DNA of 64,000 bases from Lepisosteus oculatus (Eukaryota; Chordata; Actinopteri; Semionotiformes; Lepisosteidae). Both the position numbers and the translations under genes were made by a program. Shown here piece by piece: positions 22 to 64,000 of the stretch. The notes beneath the pieces are model-generated. The model did not search any database. It had not been told where the DNA came from and saw nothing but the letters and a program-made list of their open reading frames with translations. The DNA lies in the NCBI RefSeq assembly GCF_040954835.1, contig NC_090723.1, positions 444,001 through 508,000 on the forward strand. The letters are read 5' to 3'. Position 1 is the stretch's first letter, and each line of letters begins with the position of its first letter.

Positions 22-27
22 TTTAAT
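22..27 (-). terminator. Possible poly(A) signal of the Ig receptor gene
   Basis: An ATTAAA hexamer on the minus strand lies about 160 nt past the receptor stop codon. The cleavage site would be at or beyond the window edge, so it cannot be confirmed. Confidence 0.3.
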
Positions 28-184: not shown

Positions 185-358
185 TCACTGATCTCCTTCC
201 CTCTGTGCTCCTGTCCGGACCTCACTGTACACAGCTTGCTCCGCATTCCGATGCACCAGGTTCACATACACAGGGTCTTCTTCTCTCCTGTCGGCCTCCG
301 TCGCCTCAGGGACAAGTGGCGGGGACACCCAGATCGTGGAGTACACAATCTGCCGAGT
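185..358 (-). CDS. Ig receptor exon 6: ITIM-bearing tail and stop
   Basis: The exon holds 57 codons plus TGA (187-185). It contains IVYSTI, a match to the ITIM pattern (I/V/L/S)xYxx(I/V/L), then PVYVNL with Asn at +2 (a Grb2-type YxN site, comparable to the Ig-tail-tyrosine motif of TIGIT), then AVYSEV. The intron before it is only about 99 nt. Confidence 0.7.
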   Translation of the reverse strand, partial: TRQIVYSTIWVSPPLVPEATEADRREEDPVYVNLVHRNAEQAVYSEVRTGAQREGDQ

Positions 359-3300
359 CTGAGGACACCAAGCACAAAGAATCCGGAACTAGAATGTTAT
401 TTATTTTTATAGAAAGCTCAATTATTTTTTTTTAGTTTGAGAGTTCTTGAAACTCACCTGAGTGACATCAATTCGGTACCTTATGGGCTGCTGACCAGCT
501 GTAAAAGAGATGCAGGAGTGAGACCTGGGTCAGCTCTGTGTGGACTTCTGCACACATGACAAGGAATGACACCCAGCTACATTCTGAGGCATAAAGGAAT
601 GTCCTCCTCACAAAAATTCAGTTCTGAAGGAACTAATGCTATTTTTTTAAATATACTTTATTCAAAGCATGATGATTATTTAAATAATAATGTCATAATG
701 TATCCATATTGTGACACAATTTCAGCTCATAATTTGAACTCACTTTTGTGAATTTCAGTAATAAGTGGGGAGGAATTTGTAGTACATCAGACTTTTCATA
801 CCAACCTAACTGCCCAGTACTGTTTCTGATTTGAGGCAGTTGCCTCCTGTGCTGGGGGCCACTGGGGAATGGAGACAGTGATGTAATCAATCACTGAGAA
901 GTGCAGGCAGTGTAAAGGAAGTCACTTTTAAAAAATGAATCCATTACAGTTATAAGTTACCCTTGTAAGGGATTCCTTTTGTAAATTAATAAGTTGCTTG
1001 TAAATTGATTTTAAATAGTTGTGTATTATTTACATAGTATGTCAGCTGGCTCACAGAGAGCTGGAAACTGGAATAAGTGTAGTGGATTTTCATGTTCCTG
1101 GTCTTCCACAGCCCAGTGTCAGAATGTAAAACAGGCCATGGGGACATGCACTTGCTGGCCAGAAAATTAGAAGCCTACCCAAATATATGTGAATTGAAAG
1201 AATTAGATTGAATAATATGTGGCAATTAAACATGTTCTGCTCAAACCAATGCTATCCTGTTAACGCCTGAGGGTGAGATAAGAATGACGGAGTGTGAAAT
1301 TGAACTTCATATTCCACTGGTTCCACCAGTTTGTCATGGGTCTGTTCTGGCCTGGAGCAGTGTTGTACAGTAAGTCTGACATTGACAGTGCCTCCCACTG
1401 AGAGGTTGGAAGATTTCATTAGAGGTTTCTAATGCTGGCTTAGAGCAGTGCAGAATCTCACGTACGCTGAGGGAGTTAACATGTTAATCTTGTTGTGTGG
1501 GATTTCTAAAAAAATGCATATTTCCTGCCAAAATAATACTTTCCCAGAAACACACTTGCAATGCAATGTTTACTGAGGTCCCCCCTAAAGCCCTGTTACT
1601 GAAAGGACTGAGCTGACTTGTAGTGGGGGTGCTGTAGTGAGCCCCAAACCAGCACTGCTGGCCATTACCCACAATGCCAATGACCTCTCCTGCTGCGAAT
1701 CACCAGTCCCAGCACAGCCAGCGCTATGGTGATGCCCAGCACAGCCAGGACCAGGGCTGTGGTGGCATGGCTGCGGTGATGCCTCTGGGCAGATTCTGTG
1801 GGGACAGAGAGAGGGAGTCCTGCAGCACTTAGAGGGAGCCAGGGGAAATATTTCTCATCTGCAGATGATCTCATGTCACATGCACAACACAGAAAGCCAA
1901 AAATCTAAATAAGATCCAGACAATGCTATTCTGTTCTGAGCAATCAGTGTGTTGTCTGTCGATTACTGTTAGCTGAGTTAGCATTTAACAGAATCCAACC
2001 AGGTGACTGAAGGTTTTCTGTGATGCAGAAGGGTAAAAGCTGGGTAAGGTTTAGTAAAGCACTGTGCATTCCTGGTGTGATCAATATCTAATGGTGTATG
2101 GGAAAGGATCAAGTAAGGAACAAGTAGTTTTAGTCCACGCTGAAGAATCTGCAGACTCAGCAGCAGAAATGCTGTATTTCTCCTTTCTGTTTTTCAGCGT
2201 GGAATTAACCCTTACTTGTTCCTTTTGAGCGAATGCACACTGACATACCTCCCCACTTGGATTCATGGAAAATCCTGGAAACGTTAAGGCTGGTATAAAC
2301 ATTTCACATCTACCTCTACCAGAAAACTGCCAATTCGGTGCTGAGCTTTTGCTAAGAAGAGGCACCATGGTCTAGCAGAGACAGAATAAGGGTGGAACCA
2401 CTGGTAGGAGGCTAAGCAGGGGACTGCATGCTGCAGGGAGACAAAGGGCTGAGAAACAGTAATCTTAAAACTAGTCAGGGCACTGCTCACGAGCTGAGCT
2501 CTGCAGGGTGCCCTGAATTCAGCAATGCAATATGAACAACACACCAAGAGATCTGACCTTTGACCTTGAGATGAAAAGTCCTGTGGAAGAGGTAGGTTCC
2601 GTTAGTCCACTCGCAACGGTACCGGCCTGCCTGAGCTGGAGAAGGAGTCCACATCGGGTGCTCATATCTCCTCGACCCTCTGGTCCCATTGGGGACCAGT
2701 TCCATAGTGCAGCCTGTTATGTGTGCTAGCAGATCTCCTCTGCACCAAGTCGAACTGCCCTCAAACTGGACCTCCAGAACCAGTTCCCTGTCAGACCCTG
2801 CAGGACCCAGCCTGTACCAGAGCACAGTTCTATGGGAGCTAGTGTTCCAGGCCCAGGTTCTGGTAGTGCTCCAGTCAGGATCCAGGCAGTCCAGTGATAA
2901 GGGCCGTGTTACAGGGATCTCCACCAGCTCTGTGAGAAAGAAACAGAAACCAAGTCCAATCAGCCCTGAAGCACCGCTGGGCACCCTGAGCTAAGTGATG
3001 ATGCTCCAAATACTCTTTCCAAAACCTGCAACTGTGTCCTTCAGACAGCTTGTCAAAATCTGAAAAGGTGCAACTAAAGAAGTACAGGATTTCAATGCGT
3101 TGTGCCCTGCAGACGAGACCTTCATCAGCAGCAGCTGGTCTACCACTAGGCCGCGTCTCACCTTCAATGGTCAGGGACACCTGCTCCTGAAGTGTCCCGT
3201 CAGGGAAGATGGTGAAGATGCAGCTGTAGTTGCCGCTGTCCCCGAGTCGGCTCCTGGCGATGGATAGCGAGGTCTCCCACAGCCCGCCGGACCTGTTCCA

Positions 3301-5378
3301 CAGCAACAGTCTCCCGCCCCAGTCGCCGGTGGGATAGCTGGTGCCAAAAATGGGGTTAAAAACAGCCACGGCTCTTCCCCCTCGCTCCCAGGATAGCTGG
3401 ACCACGGTCATGGGCTGCTCGGCCGCCCGCAGCGAGCAGCTGAGGGTGACATTCTGCCCCAGGTAACCCACAGCCTGGCTCTGTGCTGCCACATGAGGTG
3501 GGACGCCCCCTGTTGGAAAGAAAAAGCAGCTCAGGTAATCTAAAGGACCTCCACTTACAGTAACATGACAGGTGACTGCTGGAGCCTTTATCAAGACATC
3601 TCTCAAGGGATAAAGTTTAAAACATAGTCGTAAAATCAAAAAGTATCACATTGTACAGGACTCATGTTTGCTCTGGCTTACTGTTTTTAAATGCAGAAGC
3701 TCCCATCTGCACGGACAGGGATTCCCAACGATTCCTCCTTACAGGAGGCTTTCAGAATCCGCTAGGCCTTTGGGAAATCCGAGAGAACTCCACCCAATTT
3801 TCCAAAACTACTTAGGGGTGAAAAAAATTCAACAGCATGGCTGGGTAATTTGTTCCCAACACATACAATTTGTTGTGTAAAGATATGCTTTATACTTTTA
3901 CAATTACTTTCGGAAAATGTTTCAGAAATGTTTGCCCTGGAGGTTTTGATAGTCAACCTACGTTGTAATTTGGCCCTTGCACTTGTGATCACACTTGTGT
4001 TTCTGCTTCAGCTTCTAGCTGAAGGCATTCAAAGCCTGGTGGCCCACAGACATTTGTCCATTGCTGCAGACTAATCCAGTCACTTGTCTCAGAGTCAGTA
4101 GAGTGACTTTACTAGAAGTTATAAAAATAACTCTTTTGTCCTTGTCTAAGGGAGATAAAGGGTTTTCTGATATTGCTGTGTTAACCAAACACAAAAACTG
4201 TTCTCACCACAAGAGAAACTTTTTTTATTTATCTGGTAAAGAATGACTCATGCAGCTAGTCAGTTTTTTTCTTTGTTTCTTCCACAATTCAAACTTGAAA
4301 GTTTCATTTGTGTCACAGCACGAGATGGCTCTCCTGGATTCCTGTTATTTGGTCCTTATTTGGGTTTTTATCCTTTTCTTTATATTCAGGCTGTTTCTCC
4401 AGCCTGTGTTTTGTAGTGTTCTGGATCCAGACTGTAAATAGCCAAGCAGTGATTAAACCTGAACCGGTTTCACTTTCAGCTACTGTACATGGGAAAGGCT
4501 ATTTTCATGGCCAGCATAACCCTTTGCATTAGCATTGGAACTGAGACGGCAGAACGGTGCATCACCATGTGAGTCATGTGTGTCGGTGTCCAACCTGGAT
4601 CCCCAGGGATTCATTCTGGCCCAGGTCTCAGTTGCTTGACTGTGACAACAGTCCATTTGTTTTGTCCAATTCAATCTGGATCTCAAGCTCTTGACTAAAG
4701 ACATGACAGATTGCAGGTCTCAAGAGGGGGTGAGAACCGCATGCAAACATGATAGTGTCTGATCACCAGGCAGCACCAAACTCTTACTGTGCACACTGAC
4801 CGCGTGGCTCGCTCGCTCCCTGGGGGGGCTCTGTTTCTCCCGCTTCGCTCCCTGGCCGCGCCGGAGCAGGGCTGAGTGCGGTTCAGCTCGGTTTGGGCAG
4901 CACTTCGCCCTCTCTCGTGCTTCACTCTCGCCTTCAGACAGTTCTTCTCCTCTTTGCATGTTCATTTGCTTAAACCCTGGGCTGGGTGTTTTGACAACAG
5001 TGTTATTCCGTATTAACCTCTCCTGAGTGACGTGTTTACCTTGCATTGAGAATGTTTACTGTGGTAAATATGCAAGATATTTTAACAGTGGTTTGCCATT
5101 ATTAAAACATGCATTCCCTGCAATGCTTTCATAACTAGCAACTCCTCACTGTGCGCTGCATGCTTTTACTATCATTTTACCAGGTTTGACTATACTTTAC
5201 ATTGCTTTTACCTTGACATACAACCCTGGGTTTTGACCAGTCATCCATGTACATCTCAGGTGACCAGACAGTTTTCCCGATAGCGGCGCAGTTCGCTCTT
5301 TTGGGCAGCCGAAGCGAAGCAACGTCTCTTACCTGCTCTCAGCACACAGCACAGGGCCAGGAGAAAGCAGACAGCCAT
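185..5378 (-). CDS. PVR/nectin-family-like Ig receptor with ITIM tail (6 coding exons)
   Basis: I joined six minus-strand exons by GT-AG sites and phase: 5378-5333, 3509-3162, 2929-2558, 1795-1685, 498-458 and 358-185. Together they give 1092 nt, or 363 residues, ending in TGA. The product is a type I membrane receptor: signal peptide (1-15), V-type Ig domain (about 16-132), a second Ig-like domain (about 132-256), one transmembrane helix (about 267-288) and a 75-residue tail. The V domain shows AVFNPIFG (the AX6G motif), TIFPDG (TxFP) and VVQLSW, which is close to the third motif. These are the signature motifs of the PVR/nectin/TIGIT/CD226/CD96 group. The tail has IVYSTI (an ITIM, Tyr312), PVYVNL (YxN, Tyr337) and AVYSEV (Tyr350). 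Introns 1-4 are all phase 1, as usual for Ig genes. A role as a regulatory leukocyte receptor is inferred. Orthology to a named gene is not clear, and a fish-specific receptor family is an alternative. Confidence 0.78.
458..498 (-). CDS. Ig receptor exon 5: juxtamembrane cytoplasmic exon
   Basis: This 41-nt exon lies between a TTTTACAG acceptor and a strong CAG/GTGAGT donor. Only the phase-1 reading is open (AGQQPIRYRIDVTQ, residues 293-306). It takes the frame from phase 1 to phase 0 and so connects exactly to the final exon. The fit of phases is the main evidence that it is real. Confidence 0.65.
1685..1795 (-). CDS. Ig receptor exon 4: transmembrane segment
   Basis: The exon is 111 nt, phase 1-1. 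A basic stalk (QRHHRSH) leads into an uncharged helix ALVLAVLGITIALAVLGLVI and a basic stop-transfer RSRR. There is no charged residue in the membrane, so no ITAM adaptor pairing is expected. The chosen donor (GTCATT) is weak. If it is not used, the frame reads six more residues to a TAA at 1667-1665. Confidence 0.72.
2117..2265. repeat. Foldback repeat, copy A (diverged)
   Basis: GGAACAAGTA at 2117 and its inverse TACTTGTTCC ending at 2222 bracket arms that meet as CCACGCTGAA and TTCAGCGTGG. Flanking sequence to about 2265 resembles the outer flank of the other copies. It sits in the intron between the second Ig and transmembrane exons of the receptor. It is the most degraded of the four copies in the window. 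Confidence 0.65.
2558..2929 (-). CDS. Ig receptor exon 3: second Ig-like domain
   Basis: The exon is 372 nt, phase 1-1. It follows a good pyrimidine tract and CACAG acceptor and ends at a weaker GTCAGA donor. LSLDCLD and AGRYRCEW supply the B- and F-strand cysteines and LWYRL the core Trp. Two further cysteines (TWCRGD, ITGCTM) lie between them and may form an extra disulfide. Sequons NTS, NGT and NGT are present. The domain is too diverged to place in a named Ig subset. Confidence 0.75.
3162..3509 (-). CDS. Ig receptor exon 2: V-type Ig domain
   Basis: The exon is 348 nt with phase 1 at both ends, behind a CAACAG acceptor and before a GTGAGA donor. It carries the B-strand Cys (VTLSCSL), the C-strand Trp (LSWER) and the F-strand motif DSGNYSC. 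The AX6G and TxFP motifs of the PVR/nectin/TIGIT group are intact. N-glycosylation sequons are visible at NVT, NRS and NYS. Confidence 0.85.
3514..5332. other. Receptor intron 1, no further gene seen
   Basis: This intron separates the leader exon from the V-domain exon. It contains a GC-rich patch at about 4795-4935 with short open frames of biased composition. I see no Ig-like exon or RNA gene in it. Confidence 0.5.
5333..5378 (-). CDS. Ig receptor exon 1: signal peptide
   Basis: The ATG at 5378-5376 opens MAVCFLLALCCVLRA, a typical hydrophobic signal peptide. The exon ends in phase 1 at a strong GTAAGA donor. A longer reading in the same frame from 5456 exists, but it begins right after a stop codon and would bury the leader, so the inner Met is preferred. 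Confidence 0.75.
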
Positions 5379-5399: not shown

Positions 5400-7090
5400 T
5401 GTGTCTCCAAGCAGTAAGCTTGGCTTCTTAACATTCTTCCCACTTCTGCTTTCCATTCACACTGGGTTCAGCCTTGTGGAGTTTCACTTCTACAGCCCAC
5501 ATGAGCGAGACCTGGCCAGTACAACGTCTCTCCATGTTTTTACAGTGCTGGAGCAGATCTTGAGAACTGACAGAGAGATGTCTTCTTTGTTTGGCTTCCA
5601 GCACCTGCGTTGCTCCGGAGTCAGTGAGCTCTGAATGCTAGTCCAACAGTATATCAGTTTCTTTTGGATTCGATTTATTACATTGTGACGTTGAATATGT
5701 ACTGTGCAGTGTATGCCAGCCTTACTAGGTACCAGGAATCCTTTCTGTTGTGATGATTGTAATCAAACATGGTACCCAGCAATATTTTCCCTGTGTGAAA
5801 TTCTCCCGGCACAGTTTCATATAACAAGGTGGTGAAGAAATCTGGGACAAAATCAAACGTATATTTTTTAAAATATGTCACTAACTTCAAAGTCACTTTG
5901 TCATTCTGTCATGCTTTGTTGTGATAATATCCACCTGGAACCATTTATATACCTATACATTCATTTTAGCCAATGGAATCTGTGTTTTATACGGAAACTC
6001 CATACCACCTGAAAGCTTTTTTTGTGAGCTGCTTGTGATAACAGCATCTGTCAATAGTCAATAGTGAATCATCGCCCATGGCAGTTTCTGTCCAGGAGGG
6101 GGCGCCACCAGTTTAATATCAAAGGGAAATTGGAGCAGGCCATGTCCAGACCTCCTCAACCTTCTCCTGACGTGGGCAGTGAAGTACTTTGGGAATTTCT
6201 AACCCAGTACGAAGCTCAGATATGTCATTGAGACGACAATGGGTTAGAACAGTCTGTCAGTGATGTACCCAATATATCTGCAATGGATTACTTCTTAAAA
6301 GCAAGCCTTCACAAAACCGGAGCTCTTGTATGTTAAACACAAAAACATTCATTGCAAAGTCACAACCTCTGCTGCACTTTTTTTTTAAAGTCAGACCCGA
6401 TGAGTAGCGTACCAGAAAAACACGCTGTGACTTTCTATTAGAGGCCTGTAACGTCTACCTTCTGTGTGAATATTGTCTTACTAGACCTGTACTACCCAAG
6501 GCTTTACACAGCAAATTGTATTCTGGAGCAAAACCGCTGTAGTAAATAGAAAAGCCACGTGTTAATAGAAACGAGTTCTCCTTGGTTTACAGTAGCATTT
6601 GTGAGTGATTACAAACTGGTCGCTCATATCACCCGATGATGCCAAACATTCTGCTCCGCTGTTAGAAACAGGCTCCACTTTTACTACTTGGTCAAAAATC
6701 TGTAGCCCTGACCAGCGCTGATAATTATATAGATGATAAAACACTGGAGATGTGTTAACTTCACTGTAAGAATTACTTCCTGTATCGCAGCGAAGTCAGC
6801 GCTTCTGCAGCTGTGCCTGTGGTGTCCAGTTTCCTTCCACATTTCCACCTTTTTTTTCAGTTGATTTTCGCTGGTAATTTGACCGTTTTTTTCCCATCAA
6901 AGATAATCAAAGGACTGTAAAAACTGTTTGATTTTATAAGAACTGTATTTACTTGTCACAAATAAATACAGAATACAAAAATTATACAATATTATTTAAG
7001 ACCTTAAACAGTATATGTGCACACATGCTGAAAAGACTACAAAACCAACCCAAATCTGCGTCTTTTATCAAGACAACATTTTTAGCCAGA
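5400..7090. other. Intergenic, no gene recognised
   Basis: The stretch upstream of the receptor is AT-rich with short frames only. The one notable site is a CTCF-type motif at 6092-6106, listed separately. Confidence 0.5.
6092..6106 (+). promoter_or_regulatory. CTCF-like motif
   Basis: CCAGGAGGGGGCGCC matches the CTCF core except for one position. It lies between the Ig receptor and the U1/phb block. Binding is not shown by sequence alone. Confidence 0.4.
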
Positions 7091-8140: not shown

Positions 8141-8304
8141 ATACTTACCTGGCAGGGGAGACACCTTGATCATGAAGGAGGTTCACCCAGGGCGAGGCTC
8201 GGCCATTGCACTCCGGCTGTGCTGACCCCTGCGAATTCCCCAAATGTGGGAATCTCGACTGCATAATTTCTGGTAGTGGGGGACTGCGTTCGCGCTCTCC
8301 CCTG
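8141..8304 (+). ncRNA. U1 spliceosomal snRNA
   Basis: This is a full-length 164-nt U1 RNA of the U1 snRNP, which pairs with 5' splice sites. It starts ATACTTACCTGGCAG, the splice-site-pairing 5' end. Loop I has GATCATGAAG (U1-70K contact), loop II has CATTGCACTCC (U1A site), the Sm site is AATTTCTGG at 8264-8272, and the terminal stem-loop closes with CGCTCTCCCCTG. Differences from human U1 fall mainly in stems. The intact promoter (DSE, PSE) and 3' box argue for a functional gene rather than one of the common retro-pseudogenes. Confidence 0.95.
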
Positions 8305-10626: not shown

Positions 10627-13600
10627 GTGAGTCGGCTGTCATGGGCTGGACGTCCTGGGTTTTGTTTTCTACGCAGATGTAATTTTGTGGTGAAAAGCCA
10701 AATAACAGGTGGTAAGTGGAAGAAATCTCTGGGACATGCTGTGCTTATTTGCACATTTGTAACCAAGGATGCGAGAATACAATCCAGCCATTTCTGAAAA
10801 CATCACAGGGATTCAGCTTCAATTTCACAGCTGCTTTGTTTCCTTTCAGGCTCCCTTTTTTTAAAGATGTTTTCCTGTTAGTAATCCAAATGTATCTGGG
10901 ACAACACGGTGCTGTACTGGTCAGCATTGCAGCCTCACAGTGCTGGTGTGTGCAGTTCCTGCAGTGCTGTTTGTGTGTTCTGGGTGCAGAAAACGCTGTT
11001 TAACCCTCCCTGTACATGTGGCTCTCCTGTAGCTTTCTGAGCAGCTCTGAGTGAGTGACTAGTCAGTGTTGCGCAGACACAGGCAGTCATGACACTGTTC
11101 AACTCACTTCGTAAGCCTCTGTTCTTCTGCACAAGGGAAGTAAGCTGTCAAATGGAAGGTCCAAATGGGTAAAAATGTGATAATACCGAACACTACTAAT
11201 GGTTTTTATTAACGGTGGAATAAAGAAGTGTTGTCAGAAGGGTCCTTCAGAACCCAGGCTGCACGCCCTGGTCTCCTGGCAGTTCTCTCCAAGGTGACTG
11301 ATCGGTGTGATGGGAGACAGTTGTGCCTCTCGCTCCACACAGTGCAAAACGAGGTGAAAGGTGTCTTATCTCTGATCCGTGTTTGTTGCAGTGGACGCTG
11401 GCCACAGGGCGGTCATCTTCGACCGTTTCCGTGGCGTGCAGGACATAGTGGTGGGAGAGGGCACCCACTTCCTCGTCCCGTGGGTTCAGAAGCCCATCAT
11501 CTTCGACTGCCGGTCACGCCCCCGCAACGTGCCCGTCATCACAGGCAGCAAAGGTAACGCAGCCAGCCGCGCCGTGACCTCCACTTCTGTGAATCCGATA
11601 CACCCCCCTCATTTCTCCCCGCCCTCCTGTCCCTCTCTTCCTCCTGCAGACCTGCAGAACGTCAACATCACCCTGAGAATCCTCTTCAGGCCAGTGGCCA
11701 GCCAGCTGCCCCGCATCTTCACCAGCATCGGGGAGGACTACGACGAAAGGGTTCTGCCCTCCATCACCACCGAGGTGCTCAAGTCCGTGGTGGTAAGAGC
11801 CCGGCGCCGGGACCGAGCAGCCCCTCCTCCGCAGGGGACGGCCGAGGGAGCTGTCGAGTTGGGGTTCTGTTCCTTCGTTTCCTGATTTGTCGCTTTTGTG
11901 AGAAGTGGAGCTCAGCGAGTGCACGGGGCAGCAGTAAAGCAGCAAAGTAATCAGACTTCAGATCTAAAAAGTTAAAACAACACACAAACCAGTCAATACT
12001 CTCAGCAGCACACTCACACTGAGACCGTAGAGGTACTGGAATATGTGCAAAGGCCAAGTTTAAGTGCAGCCCATGGAAGAAGACCTGGAACAATGAGGAA
12101 ACAAACCTCTCTCTGACCGTGGCCACGGGCTTTCAGGGTGGGACACTGTCCCCTCATTGTGACTGGGACAGGAAAAGAGGTTTTCCAAAATCAGGTCCAC
12201 ATTTGTTAGCTAGTATGTCTTGAAAACCTCTTCGATATTGGCTGCATTCTCCATTAGGGCCCAAGGTAAGACTTGGGTTTTACCTCTTATCTCAGGGGTG
12301 GAGCACTGGGGGTTTGGTAACTTGTTCAGGCAAGCTCAGTGAGTCGGCATCAGACAGCTGAGCCTTTCAGTGATCATAGGAAATCAGGATAAAGGCTCTG
12401 GAAACCGGTCTGTTTGGTTTCCTCCAGCTGCAGCGTGCTGAGGGCTGCGCACTGACTCCCTGTTCGTCCCACAGGCACGGTTCGATGCTGGAGAGCTGAT
12501 CACGCAGCGAGAGATGGTGTCGCGGCAGGTCAGCGAGGACCTTATCGAGAGAGCCTCCACCTTCGGCCTGATTCTGGACGACGTCTCACTGGTACGGTGA
12601 GCCTCCAGCACACAGCACTGCCGGCGTCAGCGGTGTGTCAGCCCAGCGGACAGTCTGTCCAGCACACAGCACTGCCGGCGTCAGCGGTGTGTCAGCCCAG
12701 TGGACAGTCTGTCCAGCACACAGCACTGCCAGCGTCAGCGGTGTGTCAGCCCAGTGGACAGTCTGTCCAGCACACAGCACTGTCGGCGTCAGCGGTGTGT
12801 CAGCCCAGCGGACAGTCTGTCCAGGACCAGTCAACCTAGTGTAACTGCAGAACAGTTAGCCAGTACAAAAAAAATCTGAGTGACTGCAGGGATAGGTCAG
12901 TAACCCAACATCTTTGTTTCATCTGTTGTGAAATGTCTAATGTCACTTTCAGTCTGCAAAAAAAACTTCTCATAGCTAATTAAGTTATACCAGCTGCGCA
13001 CGTTCCGCAGTTTAAAGCTTGTATTCTTGGAAGACATTTCCTCCTGTATAGAGGAAATATCTCCTGGACATCAATACCTTTTCATTCTGTAATTGCATCT
13101 ACTTTAAGAACCTGAGATGGCCATATTCTGAGTAATGCAGACTAAGGCTCCAGCAACCAAGCTTGTAGTTGTGAGGTATCCTTTAATGACCCACAATCCG
13201 TACAGAACGTTGTTTGTTTCTTCAGTAGAAGTCTAAGCTCAAGCTGTGAGAGAGCAGCAGTGTGGTGATGTGATGTCTCTCTGACTCTCCCCACAGACGC
13301 ACCTGACCTTTGGTAAGGAGTTCACAGAGGCTGTAGAGATGAAGCAGGTGGCTCAGCAGGAGGCAGAACGGGCTCGCTTCGTCGTGGAAAAGGTGGGGTG
13401 CCTTTGTGCAGGCTGTAAGACCTGCTTCTGGAACATGTGCTCCATGAAGTGATCTGGTCTTGTGCATGCCTGTACTACCAGAGCCCATTACCTTGGACAG
13501 CTGCAGTACACAGCAGAGAGCTGCAGTGCAACTCGTGTTCCCCAGAGGGTGCTCACCACCATGGGCACACCTGGCAGTCTCACAGAGCCTGTACAGCACA

Positions 13601-50795: not shown

Positions 50796-51205
50796 GTGAA
50801 GCTTTGCCGATGGCTGCTAAAACGAGAGGGACAAATTCCTCGAGCTCCGACCAGCAACTAAGCTAAATTTAACCTTACTAGAAGAAAAGCAACTAAGAAA
50901 TGTCCTGCACGATGTCTGCCTTTTCCTGCTGCTACGTCTGCTGCTGCTAGATCTTCAAGGAATACAGTACACGTCTGAGGACCGTGGGAGAGCAAGGACC
51001 AGCGCAAAAGCCTGCTTTCATCCCCTGGACAGGATGGCTAGATGAAGTAGACCTCAAATCCTTGTTTCTTTTTGTGTTTCTGTGGGGTGTCGTTCCTGGT
51101 TCAAGCTAATGTAAGCCCCTTTGTGGACGAGCTTTCCCAAGGAGCAAGAAGGAGGAGTCGCAGAGCCCTGGTCACTGACCCACCCCTGCCCCGGGCCGTC
51201 CGGTC
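50796..51205 (+). other. znf652: znf652 5'UTR in exon 2 with upstream ORFs
   Basis: The exon follows a strong acceptor TTTTTCCTTCTTCAG. Before the main ATG, the 410-nt leader holds a uORF of 18 codons (50810-50866), one of 16 codons that is cysteine-rich (50900-50950) and a three-codon one near 51033. This suggests translation of znf652 is damped or regulated. Scanning past them or re-initiation would be needed. Confidence 0.7.

Positions 51206-64000
<12,795 letters not shown>

Follow-up and report, generated by a model that had tools for sequence, protein, structure and literature searches.

What kind of gene lies on the minus strand beside prohibitin in Lepisosteus oculatus, and does it belong to the nectin/PVR/TIGIT/CD226/CD96 group? 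Drugs are aimed at the CD226/TIGIT/CD96/PVRIG axis in humans, and how this axis evolved outside mammals is poorly documented. Based on our analysis of a 64,000-nucleotide stretch of DNA (the window), the gene likely encodes an inhibitory immune receptor of this group and a new relative of the known checkpoint receptors, a reading we hold with reasonable rather than full confidence.

The gene comprises six exons, for a leader, a V domain, a second Ig-like domain (D2), a transmembrane segment and two cytoplasmic segments (Table 1). The six exons, which the preliminary description took to be joinable, were spliced in silico and give 1092 nt with a single open frame of 363 aa; all introns are GT-AG, and the exon entry phases of 0, 1, 1, 1, 1 and 0 are mutually compatible. 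The predicted product is a type I membrane protein of 363 residues with six N-glycosylation sequons and nine cysteines, and the gene probably makes a cell-surface receptor. The ATG of exon 1 has A at -3 and G at +4, and a second in-frame ATG lies at 5456, 26 codons upstream. GC content is 0.51-0.63 in the receptor exons versus 0.31-0.49 in the introns, with a GC3 of 0.67; window-wide GC is 0.476 and the CpG observed/expected ratio 0.53, a value that argues against mammalian DNA. No other significant matches to the receptor exons were found within the window.

Table 1. Features of the candidate receptor gene, in positions of the window.
Feature	Positions	Strand	Evidence
Exon 1: start codon and signal peptide MAVCFLLALCCVLRA	5333..5378	-	donor CAG/GTAAGA
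Exon 2: nectin/PVR-type V domain, lock AVFNPIFG, partial key IFPDG	3162..3509	-	phmmer against PDB, group profile, Pfam V-set
Exon 3: second Ig-like domain (D2), four Cys, without recognised family	2558..2929	-	open frame, acceptor, donor, C-W-YxC pattern
Exon 4: short stalk and uncharged transmembrane helix; end at 1685 or 1673	1685..1795	-	Kyte-Doolittle; weak donors
Exon 5: first cytoplasmic exon, 41 nt	458..498	-	acceptor TTTTACAG, donor CAG/GTGAGT, score 12.48
Exon 6: ITIM IVYSTI, Grb2-type PVYVNL, ITIM/ITSM-like AVYSEV, stop TGA	185..358	-	motif scan, phase 0 entry
Possible poly(A) signal ATTAAA 3' of the stop codon; use not implied	22..27	-	pattern scan of 1-184

The weak point of the gene model is the donor of exon 4. 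Scored with a hand-entered matrix, the donors of exons 1, 2 and 5 are strong (10.98, 10.7 and 12.48) and that of exon 3 is moderate (6.79), while the two candidate donors of exon 4 score 3.46 (at 1685) and 4.21 (at 1673). Both suit the frame, the phase of the latter being derived from coordinates. Leaving exon 4 unspliced brings a stop six residues past RSRR, and thus a short-tailed form (ORF 1665..1904).

The neighbour named in the preliminary description is indeed phb: the first recognised coding exon of phb1 starts at about 11376 on the plus strand, 6 kb from receptor exon 1, and matches Prohibitin 1 (E 2.4e-57). Between the two genes, at 8141-8304 on the plus strand, lies a complete match to U1 snRNA (168.5 bits; gathering threshold 69.5) that keeps the 5' end AUACUUACCUG and the Sm-type site AUAAUUU, and may represent either a functional gene or a copy of recent origin. 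A 54-bp minisatellite (4.1 copies, 97% matches) is located at 12604-12824, inside the phb1 span. Further along, exons of a C2H2 multi-zinc-finger gene, which we take to be znf652, extend over 51179-64000 on the plus strand, and a 35-bp tandem array (57419-57533; 3.3 copies, 100% matches) stands just before a zinc-finger exon. Human PHB and ZNF652 are likewise neighbours, so this arrangement seems to be conserved here.

The kinship of the V domain was assessed by motif, search and profile. The group is marked by two motifs, the lock AX6G and the key T[F/Y]P (PMC9263721). The lock is intact, AVFNPIFG aligning with the 11 group members exactly as the preliminary description had it. The key claimed there, TxFP (TIFPDG), stands in part: FP and the G are present and the P-x-G columns of the key are preserved, and the aligned T is an I, so that IFPDG is not the published T[F/Y]P. 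The T is also absent elsewhere, being L in CD96, S in PVRIG and A in mouse CD226. A lock together with a [FY]PxG pattern is found in 10 of the 11 group rows and in none of the 21 others.

Pfam V-set scores the whole protein at 30.6 bits (cut-off 26) and the V exon alone at 24.6. Searched by phmmer against the PDB, in which V structures of fish novel immune-type receptors (NITRs) are present, the V domain finds PVR, nectin-1, -2 and -3, CD226 and TIGIT in all of the top 35 among the best 60 of 85 rows, with E-values from 8.3e-13 (PVR) to 4.1e-4; within the same 60 rows, the highest-ranking protein from outside the group is the beta-3 subunit of the sodium channel (E 0.0014), and CD96 comes later (0.017). 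In searches of a 32-member panel of V domains, 30 of them entered by hand, the nine best rows by phmmer and the ten best by BLAST are group members; by phmmer, MPZ outranks NECTIN4 and PVRIG comes 23rd. A profile of the 11 V domains of the nectin/PVR/TIGIT/CD226/CD96 group gives our V domain 67.1 bits, within the range of left-out members (55.7-99.5, PVRIG excepted at 23.8) and above all 21 non-group domains (12.6-58.0). It is not a clean divider, because the top outsider, CD200 (58.0), exceeds left-out TIGIT (55.7). With four rival profiles, built from 3-7 rows each, V scores 10.0-19.4 bits. The PDB rows, the panel and the profile thus agree with the group assignment made beforehand; the V domain fits this group, and the kinship is above chance. 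Viral contigs held 12 pattern stretches for V and one for D2, with no confirmed relatives among them.

Trees of the short V domain, about 120 columns, lean towards group membership; they do not prove the group, nor do they place V inside it. In a 33-row tree, V falls inside a 14-row set of the 11 group members, CD200, MPZ and V itself (90/97, not starred), and none of seven AU tests leads to a rejection (p 0.20-0.57); the one that puts V outside the 13-row set gives p 0.36. A 24-row tree was built by dropping nine long-branched rows (PVRIG, CD8A, PD1, CTLA4, CD47, TMIGD2, TREM1, PIGR and SIRPA). Here 10 members and V share one side of a branch (96/96, eight unlabelled rows uncounted). Forcing these 10 and V apart from the 13 others costs 6.7 log units (p 0.20), and forcing the 10 members together without V costs 10.1 (p 0.07). 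Alternative positions of V with MOG/PD-L1/B7-H4 (p 0.50), with CADM/CRTAM (0.31) or with CD200 and MPZ (0.21) are not rejected. For the placement proposed at the outset, this means that V is put firmly in no other Ig family, and not firmly inside the group either. As trees of this length do not decide, we base group membership on motifs and scores and assign V no position within the group.

The one real oddity of the gene is D2, which by sequence is an orphan. Its pattern LSLDC...LWYRL...AGRYRC is the Ig-type C-W-YxC, and it carries the Ig cysteine pair (protein Cys 146 and 237) together with a second pair (194 and 205). No Pfam family matched D2 at E up to 1. Its best row in the PDB is a nanobody-like chain at 20.1 bits; kinship to nanobodies was rejected, the matches resting on a generic WYR..P stretch. 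Seven small V profiles give D2 at most 2.5 bits, and a CD226 D2 profile made from two sequences gives it -0.2, the same profile scoring the V domain of NECTIN3 at 24.1. D2 and CD226 D2 have only AGRYRC in common. In Smith-Waterman comparisons with shuffles against 44 Ig domains, PD-1 (z 4.8), JAM1 (z 3.3) and CD96 D2 (hand-entered; z 2.6) rank highest. The PD-1 score is reached by a fraction of 0.0018 of 5000 shuffles; PD-1 kinship was discarded, as the Ig cysteines are not superposed in the alignment and the score would fail correction for 44 comparisons. Single-sequence AlphaFold models have a mean pLDDT of 51.8 for D2 and 50.1 for V, and since V, an Ig domain by sequence, folds no better than D2, these models carry no weight.

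The inhibitory tail claimed in the preliminary description is borne out by one strict ITIM ([SIVL]xYxx[ILV]), IVYSTI at 310, together with an uncharged transmembrane helix, a combination of the inhibitory type. The helix, ATTALVLAVLGITIALAVLGLVI, has no charged residue and a Kyte-Doolittle peak of 3.0 over 19 residues, and the cytoplasmic tail has about 70 residues. PVYVNL is a Grb2-type YxN with P at -2, and AVYSEV, with A at -2, is ITIM/ITSM-like and resembles the TVYSEV motif of PECAM-1. Like the gene model and the kinship of V, the presence of these motifs and of the uncharged helix is a result of computation. By chance, 8 others of the 1700 ORFs of at least 25 aa in the window hold at least three YxxPhi motifs and one ITIM within 58 aa; therefore, what speaks for the tail is that its exons have splice signals, keep the common frame and follow a transmembrane exon, and not the number of motifs.

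Other origins of such a gene have to be weighed. It is improbable that it is an orthologue or direct derivative of CD226, TIGIT, CD96 or PVRIG that lies beside phb1 with a different tail. Two Ig domains and a YVN as in CD226, and a Grb2-type motif with an ITIM as in TIGIT, would suit that origin, and none of the AU tests on the 33-row tree that pair V with CD226 (0.28), TIGIT (0.29), CD96 (0.55), PVRIG (0.57) or all the receptors (0.47) leads to a rejection. The profiles point the other way, since V scores 66.1 bits with nectins and PVR versus 42.4 with TIGIT/CD226/CD96/PVRIG; by profile V is nearer the nectins and PVR, a point that the trees do not resolve. Two features of D2 speak for such an origin: an extra cysteine pair is common to D2 and CD226 D2, and CD96 D2 is third of the 44 domains against D2, at a z of only 2.6. 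Against it, the extra cysteines are spaced differently, the profile of CD226 D2 does not recognise D2 as described above, and a zebrafish gene is already called cd226 in a T-lineage data set (PMC9365674).

The higher score with nectins and PVR, and best V matches to PVR and NECTIN3, also speak for a protein that is no lymphocyte receptor, but serves in adhesion or as a ligand in the manner of nectins and PVR and has an ITIM in its tail; PVR is described as carrying an ITIM (PMC7286890). We give this origin little credence. The ectodomains of nectins and PVR are V-C-C in the same account (PMC7286890), against V and one orphan domain here, and when five hand-entered nectin/PVR D2 and D3 domains are compared with D2, NECTIN1 D3 alone reaches the best 15 of 44 (z 2.0). 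A divergent NITR with a V domain, an I domain and an ITIM tail is very improbable: the exon layout, the uncharged transmembrane segment, the ITIM and ITIM-like motifs and FPDGT as a partial J-like FxxGT recall these bony-fish receptors (PMC2442602), whereas D2 has four cysteines against six conserved in NITR I domains (PMC2442602), V has the nectin spacing C-x4-FPxG without CDR3 or FGXGTXLXV, and no NITR is among the best 60 of 85 PDB rows for V.

For an inhibitory receptor of the nectin/PVR/TIGIT group, we infer expression, a ligand, phosphorylation and inhibition along the following lines. The docking partner of the V domain would be its counterpart in a nectin, or in a nectin-like molecule, of an adjacent cell; contact would run by way of the lock (AX6G) and key (FPxG) surfaces, and D2 would serve as a spacer or side contact. 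Upon receptor clustering, Src-family kinases may phosphorylate the tail tyrosines; IVYSTI and AVYSEV would then recruit SHP-1/SHP-2. The Grb2-binding motif of TIGIT is also a YxN. PVYVNL would bind Grb2 and, through it, SHIP1, in the way described for TIGIT, in which Y225, Grb2 and SHIP-1 are linked (PMC9152184). The outcome would be to damp activation of the lymphocyte or NK-like cell carrying the receptor.

A wider reading, which we regard as possible and put forward tentatively, is that a nectin-axis checkpoint receptor, combining a nectin-type V domain with an orphan Ig domain and a tail with ITIM, Grb2-type and ITSM-like motifs, stood beside PHB in early ray-finned fishes or more widely and was lost in mammals. 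It could show the receptor side before TIGIT, CD226, CD96 and PVRIG took their mammalian forms. Among the open-access matches listed, no paper was found that describes an ITIM receptor of the nectin family next to phb in fish. Bony fishes, amphibians and reptiles are reported to have several nectin-related proteins without a mammalian counterpart, so that an additional member here is not unexpected; in the same account, PVR occurs in placental mammals only, and nectin-2 in tetrapods only (PMC7286890). The receptor beside phb1 provides a gene with a fixed address at which to ask whether nectin-directed inhibition predates the mammalian members.

Among related systems, TIGIT and PVRIG have one Ig domain and CD96 three, and the tails of PVRIG and CD96 are inhibitory-type. 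PVRIG (CD112R) and CD96 share the nectin-type V domain, and their tails are otherwise different. PVR/CD155 and nectins 1-4 share the V sequence, the lock and the FPxG; in place of their two C domains, and of the PDZ-binding motif in which nectins are described as ending (PMC7286890), the gene has one orphan domain and three tail tyrosine motifs. Fish NITRs share the six-exon layout leader-V-I-TM-C1-C2 and the ITIM tail (PMC2442602). Two medaka NITRs are noted as lacking one of the six I-domain cysteines, and under the loose J-like definition of that paper FPDGT is a partial match (PMC2442602); the NITR J/J-like motif FGXGTXLXV, which closes the V domain, the I domain or both, agrees with FPDGTLQEQV here at F, G and T only. 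With the layout shared and the NITR cysteines and J motif missing, exon layout alone would mislead.

CD226 also has two Ig domains with a nectin-type V domain first and a YVN (Grb2) motif in its tail; to our knowledge, it is activating and without an ITIM. The preliminary view that V plus one Ig domain matches no known member exactly therefore needs qualifying: the domain count is that of CD226, with D2 showing no kinship by sequence to CD226 D2, whose two-sequence profile recognises nectin-type V domains instead. For CD226, an asparagine at +2 is described as required for Grb2, within the motif D/EIYV/MNY (PMC9263721), of which DPVYVNL here keeps YVN only. TIGIT likewise has a nectin-type V domain, and its tail, described as an ITT-like motif and an ITIM (PMC9263721), may find a parallel in PVYVNL and IVYSTI, the ITT-like (Grb2) motif being judged by YxN only; motif order and sequence differ, and a second Ig-like exon lies in frame here behind what in TIGIT is a single V domain.
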